Assembly (NCBI GenBank): GCA_029204225.1
Contig: CM055106.1
Location: 48,993,337 to 49,057,336 of the forward strand
From: Diphasiastrum complanatum
Lineage: Eukaryota > Streptophyta > Lycopodiopsida > Lycopodiales > Lycopodiaceae
DNA length: 64,000 bases
Direction: 5' to 3'
The notes below the pieces were generated by a model. It was given only the letters and a program-made list of their open reading frames with translations. It searched no databases and was not told where the DNA came from. The position numbers and the translations under genes are program-made. Numbering within the stretch: the stretch's first letter is position 1; each line of letters starts with the position of its first letter. Shown here one piece after another: positions 5,341-64,000 of this stretch.

Positions 5341-6829
5341 CTGTTCATCAGTTATCTTTCGCAATGGTGAGCCTCCACCAATAGCAGCATAACCCTGCGC
5401 ACTTTTAGGAGCTCTCAAAGTTGAAATAAATTTTGCAAGTGGTCTCTGGAGAAATCGAAATAGCCGAGGCAGACGAATTATATCCTGTTATCAATGGTAA
5501 CGAGATTTTAGTGAGTCCCAGTTATACAAAAAGTATCATTTAGCAGCTAAGGTTAGCATGTCACAAAAAACTGAAATCAAATTATGTAACTGTCTGCTTC
5601 CAGCTGGCCCAAATTGGAGCATGAACAAAGATCAACTAACAGCAAATTAAAAAAGATATATCGACTAAGCTCAGTTGTCATGAAATCTACTAATGATCAG
5701 CAAAGCACAAAGAGAAAAACAAGCAGTCTTTGATGATCCAAAGAGGGAAAACTGAGGAGGCTCACCGGATCTGCAAAAAGGTTGTACAAAAATGGTTGGA
5801 CATCATCAAGCTTTTCTGGTCCTCCTAGATTAAGTAACAAAACTCCCACTTTTTCTTCTTTATCAAGAAAACTATCCTCCTCTTCAGTTTGACCCACAAG
5901 GGATGCTGCTGCTCTAAGGCTGTTGTTGGTTATAACGGCTTTTGCCCTTTGCTTAGATATTGATATGGGACTCTGCCCAAGCAACCTATCCTTCTTATCA
6001 AACAGAGAGGATTTCTCAGTATATGGAAGTTTATAAACATTGCTCGAATCTCCTGTTTGGCAGACAATTTGGCCCTCATACGTGAATGGCTTTGTGAAGC
6101 TTATCTGTTTACAATGAGAAAACTTATTATAGCTTGTCCTGTAGGTGAAGGTCACATGAGGTTGATCCGAATAAGAGGTAGAAAAACTGAAAATCGAGTT
6201 AAAATCTGGCCAGACTTCTTGTGCATGATTTGGAGGTTTAAGGACCAGCCTGCAAAAGCAATGAAGACCAGTTGTGATTGAATTCGAAGAAAACTAATAA
6301 AGACGCACCTGAATAATGGCCTGCTGAGAAGGCAAGTAAAATCCAAAACAATAAAAGTGGCCTTTTTCTGCTCCGGTGAATAATGCCATCTTGAACGAGA
6401 AAAAATTCAACAAGCTAAAAAACCACTAGAAGCATCAAGCCTGTAACAAATTACTCAATGCAACTTAATGTGTAGTTCAGAACCAGGGCTTTCCAAAATT
6501 TTAAAAAATTATTCTTAAACAAGCTTTTGGCTCGGGTATCCCCGGTGTGTAGGCAGGGAAATGAACCTGGGTGGGCAAGCCCAAACACAAGTTCGCCACA
6601 CAACACAGTGCACACCACACAAAGGCCGATTGTTCACCAGATCAATTGCTGATAAAAAGTTCTTCCACCAAAAAACAAAGTAAAACCCTCGATAAGTTGC
6701 ATGTGTTGGTGAAGGCCTCCGTTTTTCTCCTTGAGGTCAGAGATTTAATTCCATAATTTTGAAGATATCCAAAAGAAAACAAAAAAGAACGACGCTTGCT
6801 TACCCACTGTGCGTAGCAGCCTTCAACAT
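5341..6829 (-). CDS. Ferrochelatase, plastid type, first three coding exons (partial)
   Basis: Ferrochelatase inserts ferrous iron into protoporphyrin IX, the last step of haem synthesis, in plastids of plants. I infer three coding exons on the minus strand: 6829-6804 (ATG, eight codons plus two bases, donor GTAAGC), 6138-5766 (acceptor CTACAG, donor GTGAGC) and 5484-5341 (acceptor AACAG, donor GTTATT). Phases join cleanly and give 181 residues. Residues 1 to about 95 are a Ser/Lys-rich, poorly conserved leader fitting a transit peptide. Then come [20 protein letters not shown] and LYNLFADP, and exon 3 carries [20 protein letters not shown] and [18 protein letters not shown], the family's N-terminal domain. 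The remaining roughly 300 residues, including the catalytic His and Glu region, are not found in the 5.3 kb to the left. Either the next intron is very long and filled with transposons, or the gene is truncated. Confidence 0.85.
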
Positions 6830-10095: not shown

Positions 10096-10343
10096 GTTAA
10101 GAAACACAGTTTAAACACCCGACGGATCAATCACCACAGCACAACTCAAGTGCAACAAGACAAGACCACAGAATAGCTCACCTCAAACTGTATATTCAAC
10201 TACTCAGTAAGTACAAAGATAAAGTTACTTAAAAGCACTCAAAGGGCTCGTAAAAGAAAGACATCCCGATAATTCTAGAACTAAGCACACGTGGTGCCGT
10301 CAAAATAAGAAAGCATTGTATAAGTCGATCATTGTTATTTTAA
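10096..10343 (-). repeat. 3' LTR of minus-strand copia element
   Basis: 248 bases matching 15344-15592 almost throughout, with only scattered differences. On the element's own strand it follows a purine-rich tract (GAGGGAGAGAG) that would be the polypurine tract. The termini read TTAAAATA...CTTAAC and are not the usual TG...CA. Confidence 0.85.
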
Positions 10344-10559
10344 CTCTCTCCCTCAATGATCAACGTCTCTCTTTATTTTAGGTTTACTCTATTCATGGAA
10401 CATACCTCCATGATAGTATTACAAGTAAAATCTTTTTACATAACCAGATCTAAGCCAAGTTTGGCTCTAAAAGTTTCAAACTTTTCTTTACTTAAAGCTT
10501 TCGTAAATATATCAGCAACTTGTAACAACGTAGAAGAATGTACAATACTTATATCTTAA

Positions 10560-15343: not shown

Positions 15344-15592
15344 GTTAGGAAACACAGTTTAAACAGCCGACCGGATCAATCACCACAGCACAACTCAAGT
15401 GCAACAAGACAAGACCACAGAATAGCTCACCTCAAACTGTATATTCAACTACTCAGTAAGTACAAAGATAAAGTTACTTAAAAGCACTCAAAGGGCTCGT
15501 AAAAGAAAGACGGCCCGATAATTCTAGAACTAAGCACACGTGGTGCCGTCAAAATAAGAAAGCACTGTATAAGTCGATCATTGCTATTTTAA
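15344..15592 (-). repeat. 5' LTR of minus-strand copia element
   Basis: Partner of 10096-10343. Read on the minus strand it begins TTAAAATAGC and ends TTTCCTAAC next to the primer-binding site. It carries a CACGTG-containing word (AAGCACACGTGG on the plus strand). Confidence 0.85.
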
Positions 15593-15599
15593 TTTCCTC

Positions 15600-18299: not shown

Positions 18300-19720
18300 A
18301 AATATCGCCTTGTAGGGTTTGGAGTTGTACGTAACCAAAGGCAAATATTTTTTGGATTACATAAGGTCCTTGGCCAGAAATTTTAGTTAAGGTTTGGCTT
18401 GGCATAAGAGGACCTTATCTTTGACTTGAAGCTCTTTGAGTATTAAGGATCGATCATGCCATGTCTTTTGTCGATGTTTGTGGACCTGTTGGGCATGGAT
18501 GCTGATTCGGCGAGTCTCAAAGAGTTGTTCAAGGTGGAATAATCTATTAGCTAGAATCTGTCAATGATTTATCTCGAGATTATAGGCTACTCGTAGGGAT
18601 GGAATATCGAATTTCACAAGCATGCTGGAAAAGAGTTAGTAGACCTGTGGCTCTCTTCGGGGTAGTGCGATAGGCCCATAGAGCAGTGTGAAGTTTTAGT
18701 TTCCAATCAGATCGGCTAGACTCGACGGTCTTGGTTAGAACACCAAATAATATTTTGTTGGTGGATTCTACTTGGCCATTGGATGGTGGATAATACGAGG
18801 AACTTTTGCGATGTACCACAAACAATTTTGAAAGCAAATATGCTATGAGAGAGTTAAGGAAATGTGTATCCCTATCGCTAATAAGTTCTAGGGGGCAACC
18901 GAAATGAACGATAACATGTTCATAGAGAAATTTTGAGGTAGCACAAGTGTCAGCATTGCGAACAGCTCTAGCTTCAGTCTATTTGGTACAGTAGTCCGTG
19001 GCTACTACAATATATCTTGATTGAGTGTGTCTAACAGTAGGACTAATCGGTCCAACATAATCAATTTCCCATTTCTAGAAAGCTTGATCAGTTGTGACAG
19101 AGTGTAAAGGCATGTAGTCGGTCTTTTGAAATCGTTTTGTTCTTTGACAAACATCACAGGCCTTAGTGTAGGTGTGCATATCCTTAAAAAGAGTTGGCCA
19201 CCAAAATCCAGCCAAGAAGATTTTCTTGACAGTCATTTCAGAAGAGAAATGACCTGCTCCGACACCTTCATGAGTTAGGGAGATAACATAAAGTATTTCA
19301 CCTTCAGTAAGACAACGTTGGATAATTCCATCTAACCCTTGCTTGTAAAGTTGGCCTACAATTAACGTATAAGGTTTGGTTTTGAGGACCAATGCACGTT
19401 GTTCGGGTTTAGATAAGGATGGGTCCATCTCCCCTGAAGTTAAATATTCTGTGATATCCTTGGCCCAAATGGGTGTAGAGTCAACTTGAAATAAGATGGC
19501 ATCAGGTAAATCATCGTTGACGCCTTGATCTGGAGTTGGAAGGTTAGGAATTCAAGATAGATAATCTACTAAAAAATGTTGAACTCCCTTTCGAACCACG
19601 ATCCTAAACTCAAATTCTCGCAGTAATAGGATCCATCGAGTAATACGACCAACAATCACTTTATAGATTAATCGTGCTTTATTGGCGAAGAATGCAGTCC
19701 AACCAAGAACGATTTGATAG
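18300..19720 (-). pseudogene. Tat-like gypsy RNase H tail and integrase
   Basis: On the minus strand about 19690-19550 reads RITRWILLLREFEFRIVVRK then GVQHFLVDYLS, the C-terminal end of RNase H. The integrase zinc-binding domain follows at 19290-19090: HEGVGAGHFSSEMTVKKIF, then FWWPTLFKDMHTYTKACDVC. The core has WEIDYVGPISP (first Asp, about 19060), ELISDRDTHFLNS (second Asp, about 18890) and SSYYPPSNGQVESTNK (catalytic Glu, about 18770). All three catalytic residues are legible, but stops break the frame. The SxYYPxxNGQVESTNK form is the one I associate with Tat/Athila-type elements. Reverse transcriptase is missing between here and gag. Confidence 0.8.
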
Positions 19721-19841
19721 CCATATGTTTGGTGATATTTTTGTCAACACATTCTACTTTGAGACATTTAAAATGCTCAATGTAGTTTTGAATCGACTCT
19801 TCGCTACGCATCTTAATATGGGTGATTTGGATGAATGGGCT

Positions 19842-20144
19842 CTAAGTCAGTTTAGACGGTTTGAAACGCTTGATGAGAGCATCCTTGAGAGTAGTCCAGG
19901 AAGCAAGATCAGGAGCTTCAAGGTTGAGATACCACTCTTTGGCTGTTCCATAGAGTACCATCAAAAATAGTCGGAGCTTTTCAGTTTCAGAGGTATCTCC
20001 ATAGAAACGGCATGCATTATCAAAGTCTTCAAGAAATTGAACTAGGTCAGATTCTCCATCGTACTTTGGTGCATCTATACGTGGAATTTTGTATTTTAGT
20101 CGTGGAGGAGCAGAATTGGAAGATTTAGCACAATCTTGAGACAT
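19842..20144 (-). pseudogene. Tat-like gypsy gag fragment (copy 1)
   Basis: Starts at ATG 20144 with MSQDCAKSSNSAPPRLK and continues with IPRIDAPKYDGESDLVQFLE, FYGDTSETEKLRLFLMVLYG and TAKEWYLNLEAPDLASWTTL, the retrotransposon gag capsid domain. It continues past the first stop toward SEESIQNYIEHFKCLKVECV before the deletion joint near 19720 that removes the rest of gag, protease and reverse transcriptase. A closely related gag lies on the plus strand at 40061-40715, so the family has at least two members here. Confidence 0.85.
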
Positions 20145-22925: not shown

Positions 22926-24498
22926 TAATGTTGAAAATTATATGCTAGCCCAAACCGATGATCCTCATCCTTTTTGTATAGATGCATTTAGTACACCAAA
23001 TGCTTTCACATGATGCATTTGTTACACCTGATGTTTAGCCGCTGTTAACACTGGCTGTCTTAGTGAAAGAGCACCTGCCGACTGATGTTCCCATAGCATT
23101 ACATCATTTGCTCCTACATTTCATGCCATATAAAAATCACAAAGAAGTTTCAAATAAGAGAGAAATTTGGTCTTTAGAAACGTGGCTAACTATAACGGCT
23201 ACATGAGAGCAGAAATGATATTCCTATAATGATACCAATGGCAGTCCGAGGTGTGATGTCAAAAGCCTCCGTCATCCCTGACATTCTCGCAGTTTCTAAA
23301 GATATTTATGTTTGTTTTTATCAAATCCGGTGCCATTCCTCTCATTGACTATTGAACCACTAACAGAATGCCATGCGTGCGTATCCGCAAGCCTGACCTA
23401 ATGATCCTTATCAAAGTCGTCGTCTTGATGCGCAAAAGAAGAAGCAGATGTAGAAATACTGAGGATTCTTTTCATAGATTTTGCTTGGCTTAAATGCCCA
23501 AGCCTAAGGTAAGCAAATATATTATTGCAATTCTGTCTTCTGGAATTATTATCGCTGTTATTAAGGGATTGGTGCCTTCTTATATTTGATTGCAAGATGG
23601 CTACTCTGCCTGCACGTTTAAGCAAGGAAGAGTATTATAAAAAGAATATCGACTAAGAAAAAATCGCATCATGCTCATGCTCATCTTAGAAATCCTTTTC
23701 ACTTCCAATAGAAACTGCCCTCAATAATATTCATACCCCGCTCTACACTTCTCAATTTCTGATCATCTTTTCACTGTATGAAAACATCTGATAATTATCG
23801 ATGCTTTCACAAATCTGAACCGAAAATGCATCAAAGAATCTGATAATGACTGTTGTTTTCACAACTCTGAACATCAAATGCATCAAATGCATCAAAGCAT
23901 CCAATGATTACTTATTATTGATGCTTTGATGAATCTGAACTCTTGAAGACTTGAAAGTAGCTCAATATGCACAATACATTTTGGCCCAAATGGAAATGGA
24001 AAAACAACCAAACTCTGTCCTGTTGAGGAGCACTTGAGAGGTTCATCCACCTACTTAGTACTGACTTCATTTATTAAATATTCATCAATCCGAATTGTGG
24101 AGTCTTAAACATTATTATTCCGCTAGAGAAGACGATCCCTATACATAGTATGGTTGTTCTTTACTGCCTCAATATCTTCAGAATGTTGTAAGAATCTTGG
24201 ACACTGATTGACAGGAATAGAGCCAGTTGAAACTATGAAACTGGGATGATTGTCCTTACATACCTACTGATTGATAAGTGGTTATAAATTTCATGCGTCT
24301 AATCCATTTTGAGATCCCGCTCAGTTCAAAATTCACATAATGGATAAGACGTCCATGATAACTATAACAAGATAAAATCTGAATTTTTCAGTTTTTTTTA
24401 CACAAAAGAATCGATCATTTAGTCGATTATTTTTTTTCTATCTAAACATCTTAAAAATCCTAGCTATGAAAAAACCCTAAAAAAATTCATCAAATTCG

Positions 24499-24510
<12 letters not shown>
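22925..24510. other. AT-rich DNA with a short tandem repeat
   Basis: No gene is supported. At 23788-23940 three diverged units of about 52-61 bases repeat the words TCTGATAAT...CTTTCACAA.TCTGAAC...AAATGCATCAAA. The rest shows nothing recognisable. Confidence 0.4.
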
Positions 24511-25109
<599 letters not shown>

Positions 25110-25110
<1 letters not shown>

Positions 25111-27430
25111 AAACTCGAATTTTTGGAGGTTTCAATTTTTGGAGTCTCGAAATTTTTGAAACTCGAAACTCGAAATTTTTCTAGACTCGAAAATTTCGAG
25201 ACTCAATTTTTGGAGACTCCAAATTGTCGAGACTCAATTTGTGGAGAGACGAATTTTTGGAGACTCAAGACACGAATTTTTAAACATATTTTTGAGGTAC
25301 ATTTCGAGACTTCAATTTTTGGAGACACAAAACTTTTGAGACTCAAAACTCGAATTTTTTAAGACTTCAATGTTTTGAGTCTCGAAATTTTCGAGACACG
25401 AAAATTTTGAGACTTGAAACTCAAATTTTTGGAGGCATTTTCGGAGACACAAAATTTTTGATACACAAATTTTTCGAGACTCAAAACTCGGATTTTTGGA
25501 TATTTCAATTTTTGGAGTCTCAAAATTTTTGAGACTCGAAACTTGAACTTTTCTAGACTCAAATTTTTGGAGTCTCCAAATTTTTGAGACTCAATTTTTG
25601 GAGATTCCAAATTATCGAGACTCAATTTGTATAGAGACGAATGTTTAGGACTCAAGACACGAATTTTTGGAGGTATTTTCGAGGTACATTTCGAGACTTC
25701 AATTTTTGGAGACACAAAGTTTTTGAGAGTCGAAACTCGAATTTCTGGAGTCTCGAATTTTTGGAGATTTCAATTTTTGGAGACTCCAAATTTTTGAAAC
25801 ACAATTTGTGGAGAGACGAATTTTCTAAGACTCAAGACACGAATTTTTCGAGATATTTTTTGAGACTTTAATTTTGGAGACATCAATTTGTGGAGACTCG
25901 AAATTTTCAAGACTCAAAATTTTCGAGACTCGAATTTTTGGAGATTTCGATTTTTGGAGACTTGAAACTCAAATTTTTGGAGTCTCCAAATTTTTGAGAC
26001 TCAATTTTTGGAGACTCCAAATTTTCGAAGTACATTTCGAGGGTCATTGTCAATTTGTGGAGAGAGAAATTTTTGGAGACTCAAGACACGAATTTTTGGT
26101 GGTATTTTCGAGGTAAATTTCGAGGTACATTTCAAGGTATTTTTGGAGACTTCAATTTTTTGAGACACGAAATTTTCGAGACTCGAGACTCGAATTTTTG
26201 GAGACTTCAATGTTTTGAGTCTCGAAATTTGAATGACTCGAAACTCGAATTTTTGGAGTCTCCAATTTTTTGAGACACAATTTGTGGAGAGACAAAATTT
26301 TGGAAAATCAAGACACGAATTTTTGAAGGCATTTTCGGAGACTTCAATTTTTTAAGACACGAAATTTTCAAGACTCGAAACTCAAATTTTTGAAGATTTC
26401 AATTTTTGGAGTCTCGAAATTTTTGAGACTTGAAACTTGAATTTTTTTAGACTCGAATTTTTGGAGTCTCCAAATTTTCGAGACTCAATTTTTGGAGACT
26501 CCAAATTGTCAAGACTCAATTTGTAGAGAGACAAATTTTTAGAGACTCAAGACACGAATTTTTGAAGATATTTTCGAGGTGCATGCATTTTGAGACTTCA
26601 ATTTTTGGAGACACGAAATTTTTGAGACTCGAAACTCAAATTTTTGGAGACGTCAATGTTTTGAGTCTTGAAATTTGGATGACTCAAAACTCGAATTTTT
26701 GGAGAGACAAAAGTTTGGAAAATCAAGACGCGAATTTTTGGAGGCATTTTCGGAGACTTCAATTTTTGGAGACACGAAATTTTCGAAACTCAAATTTGGA
26801 TGACTCGAAATTTGAATTTTTGGAGAGACAAAATTTTGGAATATCAAGACACGAATTTTTTGAGGCATTTTCGGAGACTTCAATTTTTGGAGACACGAAA
26901 TTTTCGAGACTCGAAACTCGAATTTTTGGAGACCTCAATGTTTTGAGTCTCGAAAATTTCGAGACTTGAAACTCGATTTTTTGGAGTCTCTCCAAAATTT
27001 CGTCTAAATTTTCGAGACACAATTTGTGGAGAGACGAAATTTTGGAGAATCAAGACATGAACTTTTGGAGGCATTTTCGAAGACGTCAATTTTTTAAGAC
27101 TCGAAACTCGAATTTTTGGAGACTCCAGATTGTCGAGACTCAATTTGTGGAGAGATGAATTTTCGGAGACTCAAGACACGAATTTTTGGAGGTATTTTTG
27201 AGGTACAATTTTCGAGACACGAAATTTTTGAGACTCGAAACTCGAATTTTTGGAGATTCAATTTTTGGAGACTCCAAATTTTCGAGAAACAATTTGTGGA
27301 GAGACGAATTGCGAAGTACATTTTGAGTATTTTCGAGTATTTTTGGAGACTTCAATTTTTGAAGACACGAAATTTTCGAGACTCAAGACTCGAATTTTTA
27401 GAGATTTCGATTTTTAGAGACACGAAACGA
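25110..27430. repeat. 2.3-kb array of short palindromic words
   Basis: The whole stretch is built from a small vocabulary: GAATTTTTGGAGACT, AAATTTTCGAGACTCGAAA, TTTGGAGACTCCAAATT, CAATTTGTGGAGAGACGAA and GTATTTTCGAGGTACATTTC. Several are perfect odd palindromes such as TTTGGAGACTCCAAA and TTTCGAGACTCGAAA. The anchor word CAATTTGTGGAGAGACGAA, with variants, recurs at about 25235, 25623, 25802, 26051, 26278, 26517, 27010, 27138 and 27288, so spacing is irregular and this is not a simple fixed-period satellite. All frames encode repetitive peptides by chance of composition; no real gene is claimed. Confidence 0.9.
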
Positions 27431-27604
27431 TGATGCCTTTGATACCAGTCGTTCTGGGATCAGATATAAACATTCATAGAAAGCATTCACTGGCTCCGTT
27501 TGAGTTAGATAGGTTCATGACGTTTTGATGAAGAACTAATTTCAGCCATCAATGGTCCTCTCTCTCGCTCCTTTGTCACTGCCATCTTCTTTTGATCACA
27601 AAAG

Positions 27605-28515
<911 letters not shown>

Positions 28516-28884
28516 GCTGGCCAGACCAACACTCTCTCTGTGGCCTAATTTAATTTATGAATGCAAAATTTTACCCAATGTTATAACTAACTTCCCACAA
28601 TAGCAAATACTTTTATAGATAACATCAAAAAATCATTGAATTTAAGGACGCTTATATTTAATAGTACCCTTAGACTTTATAAAAATAATTGATTTTTACT
28701 TAATAGGTGTAACGTTAATATTAAACATAGATAGTTTATGTTTGTGTTTTTACTTATACTTGTTTGTTAGGTAGAATTTGATCTTTTCGTTGATACTGTA
28801 CAATAAACCTAATGATTTTTGTTCTAATTAACAGGCCATTTCTATTTGAAAAACTGAAAAAAGAATCCATGTGGGTTTATCGAC

Positions 28885-29849: not shown

Positions 29850-32540
29850 TCTCAAACACCAACGTGTCATGATTTGGGAGGAATGGAGTTTGTTTGTAGT
29901 TGTCGTTCAGCCCTACAGTGGAAACCGAAAAAAAGTTCATCTTTTGTTGCATGAAAGGCAAGGTGCGTTTGCCATTGATGCCTTCGCCCCCTCTTGAGCT
30001 CCACGAGTTGTACACATCTTCTGATGACGTCGAAGTTCATTTTAGAAAAAATGTGCAAAGTCATAATAACTCATTGGCCTTTGCTTCTCTTGGTGTGAAT
30101 CTAGATAGATCCATTGCCAGTTCCATAGGTGGTGCATATACATTTCGAGTGTCAGATCGGTTGTATCATCATATTGGTGGTTTGTTGCATGTAGATAGAC
30201 CTTCTTTTTCACAGATCTACATCATGGATGGTGATGATCTACAGATAGATCAAAGATTATCTTTGAACCCCAAGCTCAGATGTGATGTTCTCTCTCTTTT
30301 GCAGAGCATGATGATGGAGGTGAATCCATTTGCTCAATGTTTTAAGAACGTTTCTCGAATCATGTGTAAGAACATTACGAAGGATATTCGTCTCCTCATA
30401 GTGTCTGGTTGTTCGCAGAGTAGAGCCAATAGGCAATTCAATGCTCCTACAAGCAATGAGATTGCCATGCTTATGCCTATAGATGAGACCCCAAGTGATG
30501 GAATGCGGGATATCATATTGTACTCCATTCAAGATGGTTTGCAGCATATTACGGAGCATCATTCATCGTATGACCCATTGCATTTTGTTCTTCTCTTTCC
30601 TTACGGTACCGACGGGTGGTATCAGGGGATCCCCCATGTGCATGTGAGAGAGGATTCACATGGTGATGATAATGATATTCATGGTGTACATTTTGACCCT
30701 CATGAAGAGCATTTAGAGGGTGGACACAAAGTTGTCACTATTCGAGAGTTTTACAGCTACCATTTTCAGGTTCGAACGGAGCATGTTTCACCTATACATT
30801 TGGGTGGAAGGCTACTACAAGAGTATACGTGTGATGTGGTAGCAAAAATGGTGCTAAACAACATGAACTATATCTATAACAATCGAGATAGATTTCGTAG
30901 AGAGATTCATAGTGGTATCGTTGATGCTCTTGGAGCTCATTCAACTAGCGACATAGGGCAACAGATAGTCCTTCCATCATCTTATATTGGTTCACCATGT
31001 CATATGCATCAACAGTACCAAGATGCCATGGCTGTCGTTAGGGAGTTGGGTTCTCCTGATCTGTTTATTATGATGAAAACAAACCCAAACTGGTTAGAAG
31101 TGATACGTGAGTTGAGATTTCAGCAGACACCCTCAAATAGGCCGGATTGGTTGTCAAGAGTTTTTAACTTGAAGCTCCAACATTTGATTCATTTGTTGAA
31201 GAAGAGATATTTAGGCGCATTATAGGAAGGCTTCATGTCGTCGAGTTCCAAAAGAGAGAATTGCCTCATGCCCACCTGCTGATTATATTAGAGGAGCGAA
31301 GCAAACCCATCACTGTTGGAGATTATGATTGTATGGTGTGCGCAGAGATACCTTTGAGGGAGGATGATCCGGAGTTGTATGAGATAGTGAAAATATGTAT
31401 GATGCACGGGCCATGTGGAACATCTTTTCCAAATGCGCCGTGCATGAAGATGGAAAATGCTTGAAAAACTATCAAAGGAGTTTCATTGATGAAACATCGA
31501 TAGTGAACTGGTATCTTTCGTATAGACATAGGGACAATGGAGTGAAGGTCCGATTGCATGGAGTAGATTTAGACAACAGGCGGGTAGTACCATATAACAG
31601 ATGGTTGACACTACATTTTCAGTGTCACATCAACATGGAGATATGCGTACACATACACAGTGTGAAGTAATTGTACAAATATGTGTACAAGGGACCAGAT
31701 ATGATTACGGCGGAGGCTATGGAGGTTGGTGGTCAGATAGCAGGGTCAGTGAATGAGATAGATCAATTCTTGAATGCTCGATATTTTTTTGCGAGTGAGG
31801 CTTGCTGGCGACTATTTGGGTTTTCTATGGGTGTTCATAAGCCAGTTGTGACCTGACTAGCAGTCCATCTTCCTGGACAGGTGTTGGTGTATTTAGTGAG
31901 GGAGCCGACTTAGAGGAGGTCGTAGATGGTCACTCAAGTACCACTTTGACAGCTTTCTTTGAGCTAAATAGAAGTGGTGATTCATGTGCCAGAGAGTTGT
32001 TGTACCAGAACTTGCCACGATTTTACGTTTATAACAGAACAATGTGAAAGTGGGCCCGTCGAATCAACACACAATCGATTCCAACTGTTGGTCGTAGGTA
32101 TTTTGTCCATCCGTCTGAAGGAGAGAGATTCTATTTATGAGTTCTTTTGGCTCATGTCAGAGGTGCAAAAAGTTTTGAGGACTTGCGCACCGTTGACGGC
32201 AAGTTGTTTTCGTCGTTTAGAGATGCTTGCAAGCAAAGACTTCTCATAGATGACATGATGGAGTGGAGTAAGTGTCTATGTGAGGCGATTTTATGGGGGA
32301 CTCCATCGCAGTTTTGACTCATGTTCGCTGTACTTCTCTTGACATGTTCCCCTTCCGACCCTTTAGAGCTTTGGAAGAGTATAGAGCCGCATTTAGTAGA
32401 GGATTATGCGCACGATTTAGGTCAACCAGTCATATGCGAGACCATTATTGTGAGCCAGATTATGGCCATTTGTCTACATTTGTTTGGATTGTTTTGAGGT
32501 GCTATCAATGTGTACTTGATTTTCAGGTTTGAGTCCGTAC
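29850..32540 (+). pseudogene. Helitron Rep/helicase-like protein (broken)
   Basis: Near 29870 the frame fragment LGGMEFVCSCRSALQW matches the Cys-containing block that starts Helitron proteins, followed after a shift by FCCMKGKVRLPLMPSPP. A 441-codon open stretch to 31225 carries DPLHFVLLFPYGTDGW, LLQEYTCDVVAKM and GSPCHMHQQYQDAMAVVREL, the Helitron_like_N domain. The HUH motif is at 31262 (PHAHLL), and the Rep tyrosine block LYKYVYKG at about 31671 is preceded by a TAA stop. Later fragments (FYVYN, RRYFVHPSEGERFYL, LLAHVRGAKSFEDLRT, LLIDDMMEWSKCLCEAI) match the linker before helicase. Several frameshifts and stops show it is dead. Confidence 0.85.
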
Positions 32541-40060: not shown

Positions 40061-40715
40061 ATGTCTTGTGACTGTGCTGAATCTTCTAATCCGTCTCCTC
40101 CACAACTAGAACAAAATATTCCACGTATCGATGCACCAAAGTATGATGGCGAATCTGACCCAGTCGGAGCTCCAAGACTTTGATAATGCATGCCATTTTT
40201 ATGGAGATACCTCTGAAATTGAAAAGCTTCGCCTATTTTCCATGGTACTCTATGACACCGCCAAGGAGTGGTACTTGAATATCGAAGCTCCTGATCTTGG
40301 TTCTTGGACCACCCTCAAGGACGCTCTCATCAAGCATTTCAAACCATCCAAACTGACTCAGAGCCCGTTCATTCAAATTACCCATATCAAGATGCATCCC
40401 GAAGAGTCTGTTCGAAACTACATTGAGCATTTTAAATGCCTCTAAGTAGAATGTGTTGATGAAAATATCACTGAATGTATGGCCATAAAATTGTTCTTAG
40501 TTGGATTGCCTAAAAACATCTGTCGTGGACTCAAACCAGTTGACCTTTATGATCAACTTAAAGATGTGATGACCGATGCTATCCGTGAGGAAGACGAAGG
40601 TTCCGACGATGACTTTGACCATCGTGAAAAGAAATCTAAGAATCTGGACTGTCCTAATTATCCGAAGTCTGACAATATTGCTCAATCTTTTGAACTTTTA
40701 CATCAAATGGATTAG
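40061..40715 (+). pseudogene. Tat-like gypsy gag (copy 2)
   Basis: ATG at 40061 gives MSCDCAESSNPSPPQLEQN, IPRIDAPKYDGESD, then a frameshift near 40159 and FYGDTSEIEKLRLFSMVLYD, TAKEWYLNIEAPDLGSWTTL, SVRNYIEHFKCL, one TAA, and AIKLFLVGLPKNICRGLKPV with an acidic tail DEGSDDDFDHREKKSKN. It matches gag copy 1 on the minus strand almost residue for residue over the shared region and extends about 90 codons further. No protease or pol follows; the sequence becomes AT-rich at about 40720. Confidence 0.85.
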
Positions 40716-55958: not shown

Positions 55959-57835
55959 ATGGATTCATCTACTAGTTCTTCTCTAATCGACAAACTCGAT
56001 GGGAGTAACTACCATCTCTGGAAGTTCAAAATGAAGGTCATACTACTAGCCAAGGAACTATGGGACATTGTTGATGGCATAGAAGTTAAACCTAAAGGTG
56101 ATGCAGTCACTATCACCAAATGGAGACTGAAAGATGACAAGGCTTTTGTCATGATCACTCTCAACATAAAAGATAATCAAATCAGTCACATACGTGCTGC
56201 TCAGACTGCTAAGGACGTATGGGACATCCTAGCAACCCTCTACGATATCAGGGACGCCTCCTCCAATCTCCATTTGAGGAAGAAATTCTTCACCCTGAGA
56301 ATGTCTGAAGCAGTAAGTGTTTTGAGCCACATTAACACTTTCCAAAATCTTATGGAGTAGATGACTACAACTAGCTCAGTCATTGGAGATACCGATGCTT
56401 TTGTGACTCTATTATCGAGTCTTTTTGAGGCCTATAAGAATTGGGTCCTAGCAATTTCGATCCAGGAGAAGATCACCCTTTCAAGACTAATTTCATTACT
56501 TCAACAAGAGGAGGCCAGAAGAATTGAAACCTCCTCATGCACAGGGTCGGATCCTCAAGCTCTATATTCCAAAAATCAGAAGTTTAGATCCAAAAAGAAG
56601 AGCAATATGTAGTCCATTAGAGGAGTTTTGAGCTCCAAAAAGACCCTTTAAAAATTCGTGCAAGATGTAGTTTATATTATTGAAATATTATAGCACTAAT
56701 ACTTTTGACTTGCCATAATTTTTTAATCGTAGCTTAGAAGTATGTCATCTAAGATATCATTGGAAAGCTCTTGTCGAGCACTTTCCAATGCACTAAACTC
56801 TGCTAGATTCGGACTTACCACTAAAAAGTTATGTCATTTTTAGTGTGGAATCAAAATGTGGACTCAAAAAGTTACGTTACGTAGATTTCAAATTTGAGTG
56901 TTTTGATTGGTCCATGTGTAAGAAAAAATTGAGAAAAATTAAAAAAAAATCTTTACAAAGGGTCTTAATGAATTTAGAACTCCTCTAATGATGATCGAAT
57001 TTTGACTCAGGCTCAAATTTTAGCTCTAGGTCTAATTTTGGCTCAGGGTCGAATTCGAACTCTTCATCTTTCCAACCAAAGCAAAAACTATTCTGCAGAT
57101 ACTGCAAGAAAATTGGACATGAGATCAAGGACTGTAGAACTTTAAAATTCAACAATGAGAAGAAGAAGCAATTCCAACAACAAACGAATTTTGCCTAAAC
57201 CAGTAGATGAAGCAGCCTTTATGACCAAGGTCGGAGAACAACAAAATATTGATTCATGGTATCTCGATTCTGGAGCAACTCAACACATGGCTCACCATTA
57301 AGACTGGTTCAAAGATTATAAATCTTTCACCCACTCTCGAGTTGTGCAACTTGGAGACGACTCATCATATTTGATTCAACATGAAGGAATAGACTCAAAA
57401 TCAAATTTCAGAAAGGTGAAGTCAAATTGCTATCCAACATTCTCCATGTTCCAAATCTGACCATGAATCTGCTCTCAGTTAGCAAAATCACTGATTCAGG
57501 TCAGAGGGTCAAATTCAATACAACCAGCTACACCATCCTTGACAAATCTCGAAAAGTTTTAGCTTTTGGGAGAAGAAGTGACAATCTCTACAAATTCAGC
57601 CATTGTTATTCTTCCAATAGTCAAGCTCTTCACACCTCAACTTCCGAATCATCTGATATGCTTTGGCATTTTAGATTAGGCCATTTGAACTTCAATAATA
57701 CTCAACAAATGTCGACTCAAAAACTAGTACAAGATCTGCCTTCTGTCACCAAGCCAACTTTTCCATGTAAAAGTTGTATAATCAACAAGCATGCTAGAAG
57801 TCCTTTCATTTCTGACTCAGTTCATACATTAGAGA
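55959..57835 (+). pseudogene. Copia gag-protease-integrase start, interrupted
   Basis: ATG at 55959: MDSSTSSSLIDKLDGSNYHL, then FKMKVILLAKELWDIVDGIE and the capsid domain (AQTAKDVWDILATLYDIRDA), a TAG at 56358, then SLFEAYKNWVLAISIQEKIT. After the insertion come a Ser/Asn/Gly-rich repeat encoding SNFGSGSN-like peptides, the CCHC knuckle CRYCKKIGHEIKDC (about 57099-57140) and, in a shifted frame, the protease WYLDSGATQHMAHH (about 57258-57300). From 57427 SNILHVPNLTMNLLSVSKIT leads to the zinc-binding domain (LWHFRLGHLNFNNTQQMS, CKSCIINKHARSPF), and the frame loses similarity at about 57830. Integrase core and RT are absent. Confidence 0.85.
56620..56985. mobile_element. 366-bp TA-flanked MITE inserted in copia gag
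   Basis: Ends are GAGGAGTT at 56620 and AACTCCTC at 56985, perfect inverted 8-mers, each followed outward by TA as expected for a TA target duplication. Beyond the 8-mers, AGACCCTTT near the left end and AAAGGGTCTT near the right end are also inverted. It interrupts the copia gag between capsid and zinc knuckle. It carries no ORF. An inverted partial copy sits at 49054-49202. Such features fit a Tc1/mariner-type MITE, although the termini are not the classic Stowaway sequence. Confidence 0.75.
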
Positions 57836-58292
57836 AATATAGAGCCCAACAAGGGCCTTTGAAAAAGATGTTTTTTTTTTCTTATTTTTGTTGCCATGTG
57901 GACCAATTGAAATCTTGAAATCGGGGTTCTACATAACATAGAATTTCCCAAATATAAATATAATAAAAACTTTTTAAATATATTACTATTTCGTCGGACA
58001 GCATGTGAAAATGCTATTGGTTGTTGAGGCCTGCCCTTCCAGCTCATCACTGCCCGAAGAGACCCAAAAATATCAAAAATGAATATGAAAGATGGTTGAA
58101 ATGAGAAAATCGATGTACCATTAATGTATATACATTGTGAAATCATGGTTAACAAGATTAACTAGAGTTGATTCGTAGCGCCAAATAGTTCAGTGTTTCA
58201 AATTTTTGCCAACACATATTTTCATATTTAGGGCTTTTTGCCTACGCATATTTTTAGATCCATAGTTCAGTGTTTTTGCCTACACATAACGA
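57836..58292. other. Left flank of the four-gene block
   Basis: AT-rich non-coding DNA after the copia break. Three near-copies of TTTTTGCC(A/T)AC(A/G)CATA occur at about 58204, 58238 and 58274. If the block to the right is a mobile element, its left end should lie here, but no terminal repeat could be matched. Confidence 0.35.
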
Positions 58293-59659
58293 ATGGCACC
58301 ATCAAGGAAGTCGTGCTCCTCAATCGACTCTGTGCTTCTCTTCAACAAGAAAGATGATAATGGATTATGGGTGCCAAAAAAAATTCAAAAAACTCTTGGG
58401 TTTTGACGCATCCATCATCAAGAGGAGCATTTCGAAAAAGCAAAAGGTCAAAACTACCATTTCGATCTTATTGGAAGGCCATAATTTTGGATTTCAGAAC
58501 ATCATCAGGAGGATAATCTATTTCTGAAATTCTAGTCCAACATGTATATATGCATTCAGAGATAAATGTGCAAGGATTCAACCGTCAAGATCACAAAAAA
58601 AGCAATTGTGAGTATTGATATTTTTGATACTTTGATTTTTGTCATTCGTTAATATCTATTAGTAAACTTGCCAATTTGATTATTTTTCTCTTGCAGATTT
58701 ATATCCATCCAACATAAATGAATGGGAGCCTAGTGGATCTCTAGCAGGTGTGTTAGATGCTATTCACACTGATATTGGACAGTTGCAATATCGAGGTAGA
58801 TCTGCAAAAGATCTAGCTGATAGTGAGATCCTTTTTTTTATGAATCAATGTACATTCCTGATACAAAAGGATATTTTGGACAAATAGTCTCAATTCCATT
58901 ACCTAGTTTTGAAAGTGATGAATGGGTTGCTCCAGATGCTGCAGTTTCAGAATCATTTCGTTGCAAGCTATATAATGATGTAAAAAATTCATTAAAGATA
59001 AGCACGAGATCAAAAATAGTCAGATTGAGTTGGTTTATTTCTTTGAATATACTTGTGGATTTCTTTTCAAGTGTCAATGTACACAAAACCCCAACGATGT
59101 TTGTATGCAAAAATTTATCAAATAGTTTATTATCTGAACTTATGGATGAAGGCTGGAACAAAAGATCAGATGGAGAAATAGAATGCAAAATCAAAATGTC
59201 TTCCATGTGCTTTCGTTATTAAATTGAAAAAACAAATTTGGGCTTATGCTTCCATTATCAAAGATGGAAAAAAAATAAAGGTAAATGGATGCCACTCGAT
59301 CAAGACTTGGAAGCCAGTGGACATTCAAAACGAAAAAATATTGAAATTATATACAATGATGCAGTTTTGACATGTGTTGAGGTGAAAGAAGATTGGAGTC
59401 TAAATTACATCAGGCAGGAACTATTGCTCCTACAAGATAATATACTTTCAGACTTCAGATTCATTTTCAATGCTAAACTCGTAAGTAACTATAAACACTC
59501 GATTCTTTATGAATAGTTTCTATCAAAACTTTCTCATACAATCTCTATACTAATTGTAACTCACTTTGTATTAGTTTTATGCAGGTGCGTAAAAGACATG
59601 AGCTCGAGATCAAATGCAGAGATATTGGCGAAACAATCCAACTTATGGAAGAACATTGA
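58293..59659 (+). pseudogene. Gene A: intron-containing unknown gene with a possible ubiquitin-like C-terminus
   Basis: ATG at 58293 begins MAPSRKSCSSIDSVLLFNKK. Exons 58293-58607, 58697-59480 and 59585-59659 are separated by introns of 89 and 104 bases with good donors (GTGAGT, GTAAGT) and pyrimidine-rich acceptors (TCTTGCAG, TTATGCAG); the second junction is in phase. Exon 2 carries LYPSNINEWEPSGSLAGVLD and, after a shift in a T8 run, YIPDTKGYFGQIVSIPLPSF and SLLSELMDEGWNKRSDGEIE. The C-terminus (CVEVKEDWSLNYIRQELLLL...DFRFIFNAKL|VRKRHELEIKCRDI) has the strand-helix-strand look of a beta-grasp fold. About three frame breaks, mostly in homopolymers, make it a pseudogene unless they are sequencing errors. 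AATAAA lies near 59737. I recognise no family. Confidence 0.5.
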
Positions 59660-59797
59660 GATTTATATGCAAATACATGTCAATAATCATGTCTTTTTAT
59701 CAATCTAGAAAATTGCATTCCAATCTATATTGATATCAATAAAAATCCCATAAACAGGTTGTTTATATGTAAGATTGTATTTTTTTTTTATGTATCT

Positions 59798-60205
59798 CTA
59801 TTTACAAATGAATTCATATTCAGTAAGTTTTTCTATATTTTCTATATCAGTATTAAAAACTATTAAGGCATCAATCCCCTCTTCTATAATTTCGCCTTCC
59901 TCTGTTTCGGGAAGGACTTGTATGCCTTTTAAGGTAACAGGCCTCTGTCCTATAATTTTGCCTTCCTTTGTATTTAGAAGGACTTCTATGTCTTTTTTAT
60001 CATATATAACAATATCTGCATCTTGAGCAATCTGAAAGGCTGTTAAGACAAGAGCATCATGCTTTTTCGGGCCTTCGATTTCAAGTGTAACACTTACATC
60101 ATTCTGTACATAAGTTCTGATCAAGGGCTCAAAGTTTTTTTGATCTCTGAAGTTTTTTTTATCTCTCTCAACCAGACCTGCTTTCTCACAGGCATGGAAT
60201 GGCAT
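59798..60205 (-). CDS. Gene C: small unknown acidic protein
   Basis: An uninterrupted minus-strand frame of 135 codons from ATG 60205: MPFHACEKAGLVERDKKN, SVTLEIEGPKKHDALVLTAF, QIAQDADIVIYDKKDIEVLL and a C-terminus ending TEYEFICK. An imperfect internal duplication is visible: VLLNTKEGKIIG followed by VLPETEEGEIIEEG about 22 residues later. Another ATG one frame over at about 60230 (MARTKFTAHAIP) suggests the start may once have been upstream, with a one-base shift. It converges with gene A (138 bases between stops) and diverges from gene B, sharing a 300-base upstream region. No known domain; function unknown. Confidence 0.45.
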   Translation of the reverse strand: MPFHACEKAGLVERDKKNFRDQKNFEPLIRTYVQNDVSVTLEIEGPKKHDALVLTAFQIAQDADIVIYDKKDIEVLLNTKEGKIIGQRPVTLKGIQVLPETEEGEIIEEGIDALIVFNTDIENIEKLTEYEFICK

Positions 60206-60508
60206 GGGCAGTGAATTTTGTCCTAGCCATCATTCTCAGAATCAAAAGAAGTAAATTTAAGAAAAAAAAAGTCTGTGATTTGAATATCAAAACCAAGCGC
60301 AAAGAATGAAAACAAAAAAATTTGCGAAAGAATCAAACGTGCCTTACTTTTTCATTATTGTCTGTGCTTTGTACTCGCGCTTGGATCCAATACTCGGTTT
60401 TCTAATATCTCTTTCGAGCGCATAGGATGTTGAGGTTTTGTTCTAACTTGCATTCTATGCCTGAAAGTGAGATTCAAAATCTTTCTTCTATATTTTTTTT
60501 TTGTTGAA
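60206..60508. promoter_or_regulatory. Shared upstream region of divergent genes C and B
   Basis: About 300 bases, AT-rich with poly-A and poly-T runs, separate the two divergent start codons. It is the natural place for a bidirectional promoter. No firm TATA box is identified. Confidence 0.3.
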
Positions 60509-61992
60509 ATGTCTAATTTCAATTCTAGTCTGCTATCTTTTTTTCATGAAATTGGTATTAGTGATAATATAGAATATTTCAAATCTTTTTTTTTTCTTTT
60601 TATTCTTCCTTCTATTATTGAGGGTCCTAGTGTGGAAGCATTTTTTGATATTTATCTCAGATTTAAGTCTCTGCTCAGTCCTCTCTTTTTCATACCTCAG
60701 AATAAGGACATGACTCATTATCAGGACCTGGTGGCACTCGACAAGCATAGTTATAAAGCTAAGTAAGTTACATAATGATTTCAAGTCTGTAGATGATTGT
60801 CCAATTCACAATAAAAATGTAAATTTGCTGAGTTTCAGTTTGCATTTGTTTTTTTTCTTTGGTTAAATATTACTGATGATTCGGATGCTCGCCCTTCTAC
60901 TTTTGAAGCTGTTTCTTCTAGTGGTACAAAACCTGAAAAGTCGAAGACTGTAGATATAGAAACTTTTTTTTATTGATACGAGCGTTAGTTTAGATGATTG
61001 TACAGATTTTGATCCTGCACGAAATAGGGCATCGTTTATTGGCCCTCGAACTACCAACACCCTTTCTCTTTCTAATAAATCTCTTATTACATTGCCTACT
61101 TATAATATAGATAATAATTTTTTTTTGACACTATCAGATATATCGGATCTTTTTGATTTCACAGAGGCCGAGACTCTTTGTATTTTGAGCAAAGAGCTTC
61201 ATGAATTTTCGGATATAATCGATTATGATGCTGATGATCTTCTCCATAGTGTTGACTATGTAAATAAGAATGAGTTTTATTCAAGGAAAGACTGCTTGAA
61301 AATGGTTGTGAGAAAATGTGCCAAAAAAAATGATTTTCTTTCTGATGAAGAGTTCTTGAGATTTCAAAGCCAGCTTGGTTTTCCAAATACAACTGTCTAT
61401 TCACCAACCTTATTGACATCGAAAGGTGGACATAATATTGAAGGAGAGGCAGTGATCGAAGAAGACAAAGCTGAATGTGTAAGTTTTGTATCTTTCTTGT
61501 ACTAATAGATCCGTAAGGTCAGATTTTATACTGGAGCTTACTTTGTATTTTTTTCATTTCAGGAAACAATTTTTCTTGATGATTTTGCAATTCGTCGATG
61601 GCCAGAGATCCTCTGCTGGAGAATTTTCAAGAGATCATGCACTAGATCATTATCTGAAGTTCTTCGAGAATAATGAGATAAGTGTTGTCCATTCAAAGTT
61701 TCATCAACATGGTGAGACAATGATTATGGCAATCAAGGCATTTTCTCATTTTCTTGGAGGACATAATTTTAATAAGGTGTATAAAATAATTTTTGTAAAA
61801 AGAAATATTGCACTTAAGATTTTAGGAGATGATCTAGTAAATTCCATGCTCAAGTCATCTCATTTTGCATTGTATGCAGCCTACGTTGATCTGAGTAAGC
61901 ATGAAAACTACGAGCTCTTGGAGCCTTACGAGAGAAGGTTGCATGATTCTAAATTGCAACTGTTATTAGAGAAAGTGTCGAAAGCAGAGTAG
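60509..61992 (+). pseudogene. Gene B: intron-containing unknown gene, about 430 codons
   Basis: ATG at 60509: MSNFNSSLLSFFHEIGISDN, YFKSFFFLFILPSIIEGPSV, with a donor AA|GTAAGT at 60763. The next exon region (about 60840-61478) carries DDSDARPSTFEAVSSSGTKP, LDDCTDFDPARNRASFIGPR, DISDLFDFTEAETLCILSKE and EFYSRKDCLKMVVRKCAKKN, with a frameshift in a T-run near 60970. A clear intron 61479-61562 (GTAAGT...TTTCATTTCAG, 84 bases) leads to the last exon, whose long frame holds SSAGEFSRDHALDHYLKFFE, MAIKAFSHFLGGHNFNKVYK and YERRLHDSKLQLLLEKVSKA. The splice phase into that frame is off by one base, so a further indel is likely. No family recognised. Its stop is 61 bases from that of gene D. Confidence 0.5.
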
Positions 61993-62053
61993 ATATTGGA
62001 TAACCAAACTTTGTAAACTTTTTCATTTAATATACAAAAAAAAATTTGTATGT

Positions 62054-63960
62054 CTATTGTATAAATTTTGCATTATGACAAATTTGGATTTTTCTGTAAA
62101 ACCAATGGAAAAGTTGCAGTATATAGTTGTTCTTTGTGCTAGTCCCACCATGTTGTGTACTTTTATGAAATGTCGCTCTTGCTTGCCAATGAGATTTTTT
62201 CATTCCTTGCGATGACCATACGCTAAGACTTCTACTATTTCTTGCAAAGAATGTCGAATGATGCCGTAATATGTGCTGCATGTCATAAAAATATAATCTA
62301 AATCAGTACCAAAAGTATTTAAATTAATTGCACATATTTGTCTATAGTAGTGTAACATAGAAATCTTACCATATAGTGTGTTATAGGATCAACACCCCAT
62401 GCACTTCGAACTGCATCCACAAATTCACTGGTTGTTTTCTGTATCATTTGTACATTAGTATTTGAAAATTTATCTTTTCTCAAGTATTTCACCACGTTGT
62501 CTAAGTTTTTCCAAACTTCTACTTTGTGTATACAAGTAGAACCTTCTTCTTCAAAATCTTGAGTTCCAACAATAATCTCTTTCCAAACCGGGTATTGAAT
62601 CTTGGATTGTTTGCCAAAATAATTTGATAAAAATCTTCGAGCTTTGGATCCTCCAATGCTCGGCTTGCATGGAATATTTCCTGTTTTACCTGATAGCTTG
62701 TCATCTTTTTTTTATTTTAACATGGCCTTTATTTAAGCCTGCTTTAGACAACTCATCCTCTAATCTGAAAATAGCTTCCTTCGCAGATGCCTCTGGCTCG
62801 GAATTCCATGCAAACAAGATGTGAAGATATATTATTTTTTCTATTATATGCACCTCTGCATGCAATTTACATATATGAACATTCTGAAGAGGAATTGGTA
62901 GTACAGGTTTCCAATTAGGATCTTCTCGATCTCTTGATATTCCAAACAAGGGTGTTTAGAGTTAGCGCCATACATTGAACATACATTTTAGTGTCTTCAG
63001 ATCTCCTGCTAAATGCCATTCTATGTTGTCAATTCCAAGAATATTGAGTGGAACTCCATCCATGTGATTTTTTATGGTGGCAAGATATGAAATTCTATTA
63101 AATATCCATGAGAAAATGTCATGGTCTTCTTTCATCACCTATAAGAGAAAACAAAAACGTGGTTTAGCCTCATAATATTAACACAGAGAAGATTTCCCAA
63201 ATGAAATTTATACTAAAATGATTATCCCTATTGATTATGCGAAGGAACTGCTATACCTGACATGCTGCCAACCACCAGATATCATTTTCTGATTGAACAC
63301 GGAAGTTGAGGCCTTTTGAGTCTTTTGAATTTGAAAGTGATCCATTCATGATCGTAAGACTGACTCTCTCCATTTTCTGACCTTTTATAATTTCAAACTC
63401 ATCTAACTTGAGAACAACTATCAACTTGTTATTGACATTCTCATTTGTAATACCATAAAATTTTATGATGAATGTTAGTAGCTGATTAATATCAATAAAT
63501 AACTTGTTGGAATTTTTTTATGCTAGACATTCTCCTTTCGAACAATACACTTCATTGATATGAGATGGATTACCAACTATTGTCTGCATACCTCGGTTTA
63601 ACATGTCTCTTTTTTTTAAAAGATGAAATGGTTGTGGGATTGGAAACTTCTTAATATTACCTATGCAAATGTCTCTGGTATCATCTTAAACATTCTTGCA
63701 TATGCTTCTCTACAGATGCTAAAAAATTTACATGTCCCCCTGAACCAATGTAGTGTCTAATATTTTTCCAACTTCATTCATAATGCTATCAGTAACCGAA
63801 GCCTTAATCTTTTTCATTTTTTTATTGTTTAAAATTGATTTCATAGATTTAGAAGTCAAGATAGAACCTAGTGAGTTTCCAATGGAAAGCTCATCGGCCA
63901 AATGGTCTTCAGCAACCAATGCTGATTTGCATTGCAAACATAATGTTCATGAAAATGTCA
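62054..63960 (-). pseudogene. Gene D: multi-exon transposase-like gene of an unnamed family
   Basis: At least three exons on the minus strand: about 63690-63257 (GNIKKFPIPQPFHLLKKRDM, one stop, then NNKLIVVLKLDEFEIIKG and DIWWLAACQ), 63138-62370, and 62275-62054. Introns of 118 and 94 bases have consensus splice sites (TCAG|GTATAG, CTTATAG|GTG, TATG|GTAAG, CATGCAG|CAC) and join in phase 0. The middle exon reads GIDNIEWHLAGDLKTLKCMF, a shifted GANSKHPC, then NWKPVLPIPLQNVHICKLHA, a frameshift in A8 near 62705, and GKTGNIPCKPSIGGSKARRF. The last reads WSSQGMKKSHWQARATFHKS, TQHGGTSTKN. The order (D, G-D-x-K, ANSxxPC, LH, SxQG...TQHGG) recalls an uncharacterised eukaryotic transposon-like family; recalled, not verified. 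The N-terminus runs off the window. Confidence 0.55.
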
Positions 63961-64000
63961 GTAGAAATTAGGAGACTCATAGTATTTACAACAACATGAT
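63961..64000. other. Window edge within gene D region
   Basis: The minus-strand frame encoding CLQCKSALVAEDH near 63930 points to more of gene D beyond the right edge. Nothing else can be said. Confidence 0.3.

Follow-up and report, generated by a model that had tools for sequence, protein, structure and literature searches.

A four-gene block in the clubmoss Diphasiastrum complanatum, probably the left part of a decayed DNA transposon with a CMCT-like transposase gene

Introduction

In PMC12730594, the CMCT clade is described as a group of DDE transposons that includes EnSpm/CACTA, Mirage, Chapaev, Transib/RAG1, Plavaka, ESTA and Lanisha. The marks given there for the clade are a C(2)C motif and an H(3-4)H motif, both located between the second D and the last E, and most of its elements have 5'-CA..TG-3' termini and a duplication of 2-5 bp (PMC12730594). 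Lanisha is a proposed superfamily (Repbase Reports 2020), which the same source lists as similar to EnSpm with shared motifs (PMC12730594).

The locus studied here lies at the right side of the window, that is, the whole 64,000-nt stretch of Diphasiastrum complanatum DNA that was analysed. It is composed of four closely packed genes, A to D. From 57827 to beyond 64000, the block probably represents the left-hand portion of a cut-and-paste DNA transposon with several genes, now decayed, that inserted in a copia element; D would be its DDE transposase of CMCT type.

Left End of the Block

The preliminary description had placed the start of the block directly after a copia element that is cut off at about 57.83 kb, and the present analysis agrees with it: the copia coding similarity extends to at least 57792, which is the end of gag_pre-integrase (Pfam), and the block opens at the copia break with CATTAGAG, the sequence from 57827 being CATTAGAGAAATATAGAGCCC. 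The features concerned are as follows.

57827..57866, plus strand: probable left end, CATTAGAG..., with a match to the end of the MITE, directly past the copia similarity
56615-56990: MITE of 376 bp within the copia element, bounded by inverted CATTAGAGGAGTT ends, 0.8 kb left of the block end
49207-49048, minus strand: second MITE copy, truncated, 160 bases, 92.5% identity

The first 40 bases from 57827 agree with the MITE's left terminus (56615) at 29 of 40 positions. When both strands of the window were ranked with the MITE copies set aside, this match was the best of 126,756 positions and 29 was reached nowhere else; in shorter comparisons, two other positions tie at 20 bases and one at 30. 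Since the likeness was noticed first and ranked afterwards, the evidence is a ranking rather than a p-value. No target-site duplication was recognised by eye for the 376-bp MITE. Judged from these letters, 57827 is the probable left end of the element. No further match to the CATTAGAG end was found rightward within the window; the element thus continues past the edge and has its right end outside the window.

The putative left terminus starts with CATTAG, unlike the termini of Transib, which are of the CAC type. With its 5'-CA, it resembles most CMCT elements as the source describes them.

Gene Layout and Coding Content

The block had been described as four genes alternating in orientation, with only 61-303 bases between their starts or stops. 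The six-frame reading of the region bears this out: the ORF groups A (+), C (-), B (+) and D (-) alternate in strand, with 138 bases from the stop of A to the stop of C, 303 from the start of C to the start of B, and 61 from the stop of B to the stop of D.

58293..59659, plus strand: gene A, three exons, backed by 7 relatives and by exon borders
58608-58696 and 59481-59584, plus strand: introns of gene A
59798..60205, minus strand: gene C, one uninterrupted frame that opens at 60229 and has its first Met at 60205
60509..61992, plus strand: gene B, with frame changes, a possible intron at 61479-61562 and one relative
62054..64000 and past the window edge, minus strand: gene D, DDE-type transposase-like, 8 relatives
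63256-63139 and 62369-62276, minus strand: introns of gene D

In the protein database, 7 relatives of A (37-88% identity, one of them from Diphasiastrum complanatum) and 8 of D (64-90% over a 196-residue query) were found, the identities ranging from 37 to 90% overall; the sole relative of B, also from Diphasiastrum complanatum, is 66% identical across the entire query. All eight D relatives and 6 of the 7 A relatives are carried by short contigs.

Short consensus introns had been claimed for A, B and D. GT..AG introns are indeed present in all three (89 and 104 bases in A, 84 in B, 118 and 94 in D), and the relatives mark splice points in A and D, but not in B. For A, the acceptor of intron 1 (DLYPS) is reached by 4 of 7 relatives, which diverge upstream of it, and the donor of intron 2 is reached by 6 of 7, with five diverging from the window directly past the donor; P0009, the closest copy, is still similar to the window into intron 2, and P0012 picks up the next exon again after it. 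The 8 relatives of D all extend to the donor site at TH(Y/F)MV, and six stop 3-15 residues later, while P0003 and P0005 read on through the intron and P0005 re-joins the next exon. The intron of B is without support from its one relative, which reads through with similar sequence.

B and C were also considered by codon usage. For the two pieces of B, 0 and 1 of 500 shuffles were as high; another frame scored higher for each piece, so codon usage alone leaves B unsettled. With 0 of 500 shuffles equally high, the codon usage of C resembles that of the A and D exons, and its ORF length was attained in 2 of 2000 Markov sequences; ORF length and codon usage are the only coding support for C.

At the curated cut-off, no Pfam match was obtained with 9 ORF pieces of the block or with further D pieces, unlike the adjacent copia pieces, which do reach the cut-off. 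The earlier statement that the block shows no retrotransposon, Helitron or hAT domain thus holds for the tested pieces, and A, B and C, judged by sequence, appear to match no named protein family. Structure prediction of the gene products had also been proposed; the model of A is predicted to be strand-rich in its C-terminal part, and no fold matched it well among the solved structures.

Several unfamiliar genes in close packing are also what would be expected of a virus-derived insertion, either an endogenous viral element or a Polinton-like one. Such an origin appears extremely improbable: the scanned pieces, all left of 64000, contain no viral hallmark Pfam domain, and IMG/VR viral contigs yielded no relatives when scanned with D, A, B and C.

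State of the Copy in the Window

Decay by frameshifts had been suggested for the block, and this stands in part. Frame changes occur in A, B and D, many of them in long homopolymers, and some of the latter may be sequence errors instead of decay. In addition to its frame changes, A contains one in-frame stop at 59220-59222, and about 13 codons of D are absent after HPC in comparison with P0001, P0003 and P0004; this loss and the internal stop of A are not of the homopolymer-error kind.

Relatives of A and D with open frames exist, and this, together with the introns, would be in keeping with four ordinary lineage-specific host genes, or with D as a domesticated transposase, and with no mobile element at all. 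This explanation is very improbable, because A and D each have several divergent copies, the frames of the window copy are broken, and the block starts exactly at the copia break with a MITE-like end.

Gene D and Its Comparison with CMCT Transposases

D had been called transposase-like, and it is likely, from its motifs, to be a DDE transposase of CMCT type. In its candidate DDE triad, the first catalytic Asp (LKLDEFEI) is seen in the window copy only, the second D in each of the three relatives that cover the region, and the E in the window copy and P0005. In these three relatives, P0001, P0003 and P0004, the conserved candidate second Asp is followed by Cys at +20 and +23, a C(2)C motif of the form CLYC; the second Cys is gone from the window copy with the lost codons. 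The last exon, past the predicted intron, reads ITHYM|HILRHH..WSSQGMEKSH, and P0005 is similar; HILRHH, an H(3-4)H, stands ahead of WSSQGxE and its presumed last E in both sequences that cover that part. Both motifs of D sit between the candidate second D and the candidate last E, as in CMCT transposases according to the source. D differs from the described members in that no Pfam model matched it, and the block adds three unnamed genes.

Mouse RAG1 was compared with D by directed local alignment. The last exons of D scored 57, whereas their shuffles averaged 27.7 (0 of 2000 as high); a longer window piece also scored 57, with shuffles averaging 32.9 and 5 of 2000 as high. P0005 was weaker, at 49 (shuffles as high: 3 of 2000 with its end, 21 of 2000 with the entire piece). 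The ITxYxHxxxxH..WxSxGxE of the last exon aligns with mouse RAG1 with two single gaps, and the spacing from Asp to C(2)C is +20/+23 in D relatives versus +19/+22 in mouse RAG1. However, the similarity is local only and missing from database-wide searches: RAG1 and Transib were not among the matches of the PDB sequence searches with D, and the profile comparison of D with RAG1 was not significant (probability 1.5%; 3 of 100 shuffles higher). The block also differs from RAG1 in having no recognised RAG2-like partner. The link of D to RAG1, as far as these alignments go, is weak.

Other Features of the Window

Outside the block, one clear host gene was seen, a minus-strand frame at 5697-6293 whose end gives a Pfam match to the beginning of the ferrochelatase family (E 2.2e-07). 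A Helitron_like_N domain is present at 29900-31225 on the plus strand (Pfam E 1.4e-31). Direct repeats of 228 nt, 97% identical, at 10123-10350 and 15372-15599 flank minus-strand copia-like frames and may represent the two LTRs of a single element. CT microsatellites are dense at 24475-28570, with a diverged repeat array at about 25.1-27.4 kb, and a pair of inverted repeats of 336 nt (19694-20029 and 40174-40509) is 85% complementary and 20 kb apart.

Nature of the Block

The reading as a DNA transposon is well supported by the transposase-like D, the MITE-shared end at the copia break, the multi-copy families and the absence of a retroelement domain from the tested pieces. The preliminary description had left the choice between a self-contained DNA transposon and a virus-derived element; the former is supported by D and the shared end, and the IMG/VR scans brought no viral relatives.

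As for the linkage of the genes, we infer that all four move as one unit, because of their close packing, the position of the left end next to A, with D the gene most distant from it, and the similarity of the A and D relative sets. It is possible, though rather unlikely, that D and the CATTAGAG end alone make up such a transposon, with A, B and C as independent genes or pieces of other elements beside or inside it. No copy holding the full set of four genes was seen among the database relatives, the Diphasiastrum relatives of A and B lie on different records, the conservation of B consists of one relative, and C is backed as stated above. Against this, the packing is tight and alternating with no other repeats in between, and A adjoins the left end with D farthest from it, so that any element comprising D and that end would hold all four; moreover, the relative sets of A and D are parallel, with about 90% identity and then 54-81%.

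If the block is a transposon of this kind, D would carry a zinc-binding insertion of CMCT type, bind CATTAGAG-type ends, excise the element by the DDE reaction of an RNase-H fold and insert it elsewhere. D or a sister transposase would also mobilise the 376-bp MITE, whose ends are related. It is speculated that A, B and C would be element-borne helpers in end binding, complex assembly or anti-silencing, if the element had any activity.

Lanisha has C(2)C/H motifs as D has, a likeness drawn from its description (PMC12730594). The element may turn out to be Lanisha, and thus of a known kind. A superfamily-level group in land plants (clubmoss), with large multi-gene transposons, a RAG1-like DDE transposase, three unnamed accessory proteins and MITEs of its own, apart from EnSpm, Transib and Lanisha, is a tentative and unlikely proposal. 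Lanisha is reportedly found in a moss.

Significance

If A to D are mobilised jointly, the RAG1/EnSpm group would gain, in a clubmoss, an architecture of several genes and three protein families without a name. This would provide a new comparison point for the gain of partners by RAG1-type transposases, and the products of A, B and C would be candidates for a part in end binding or in escape from silencing.
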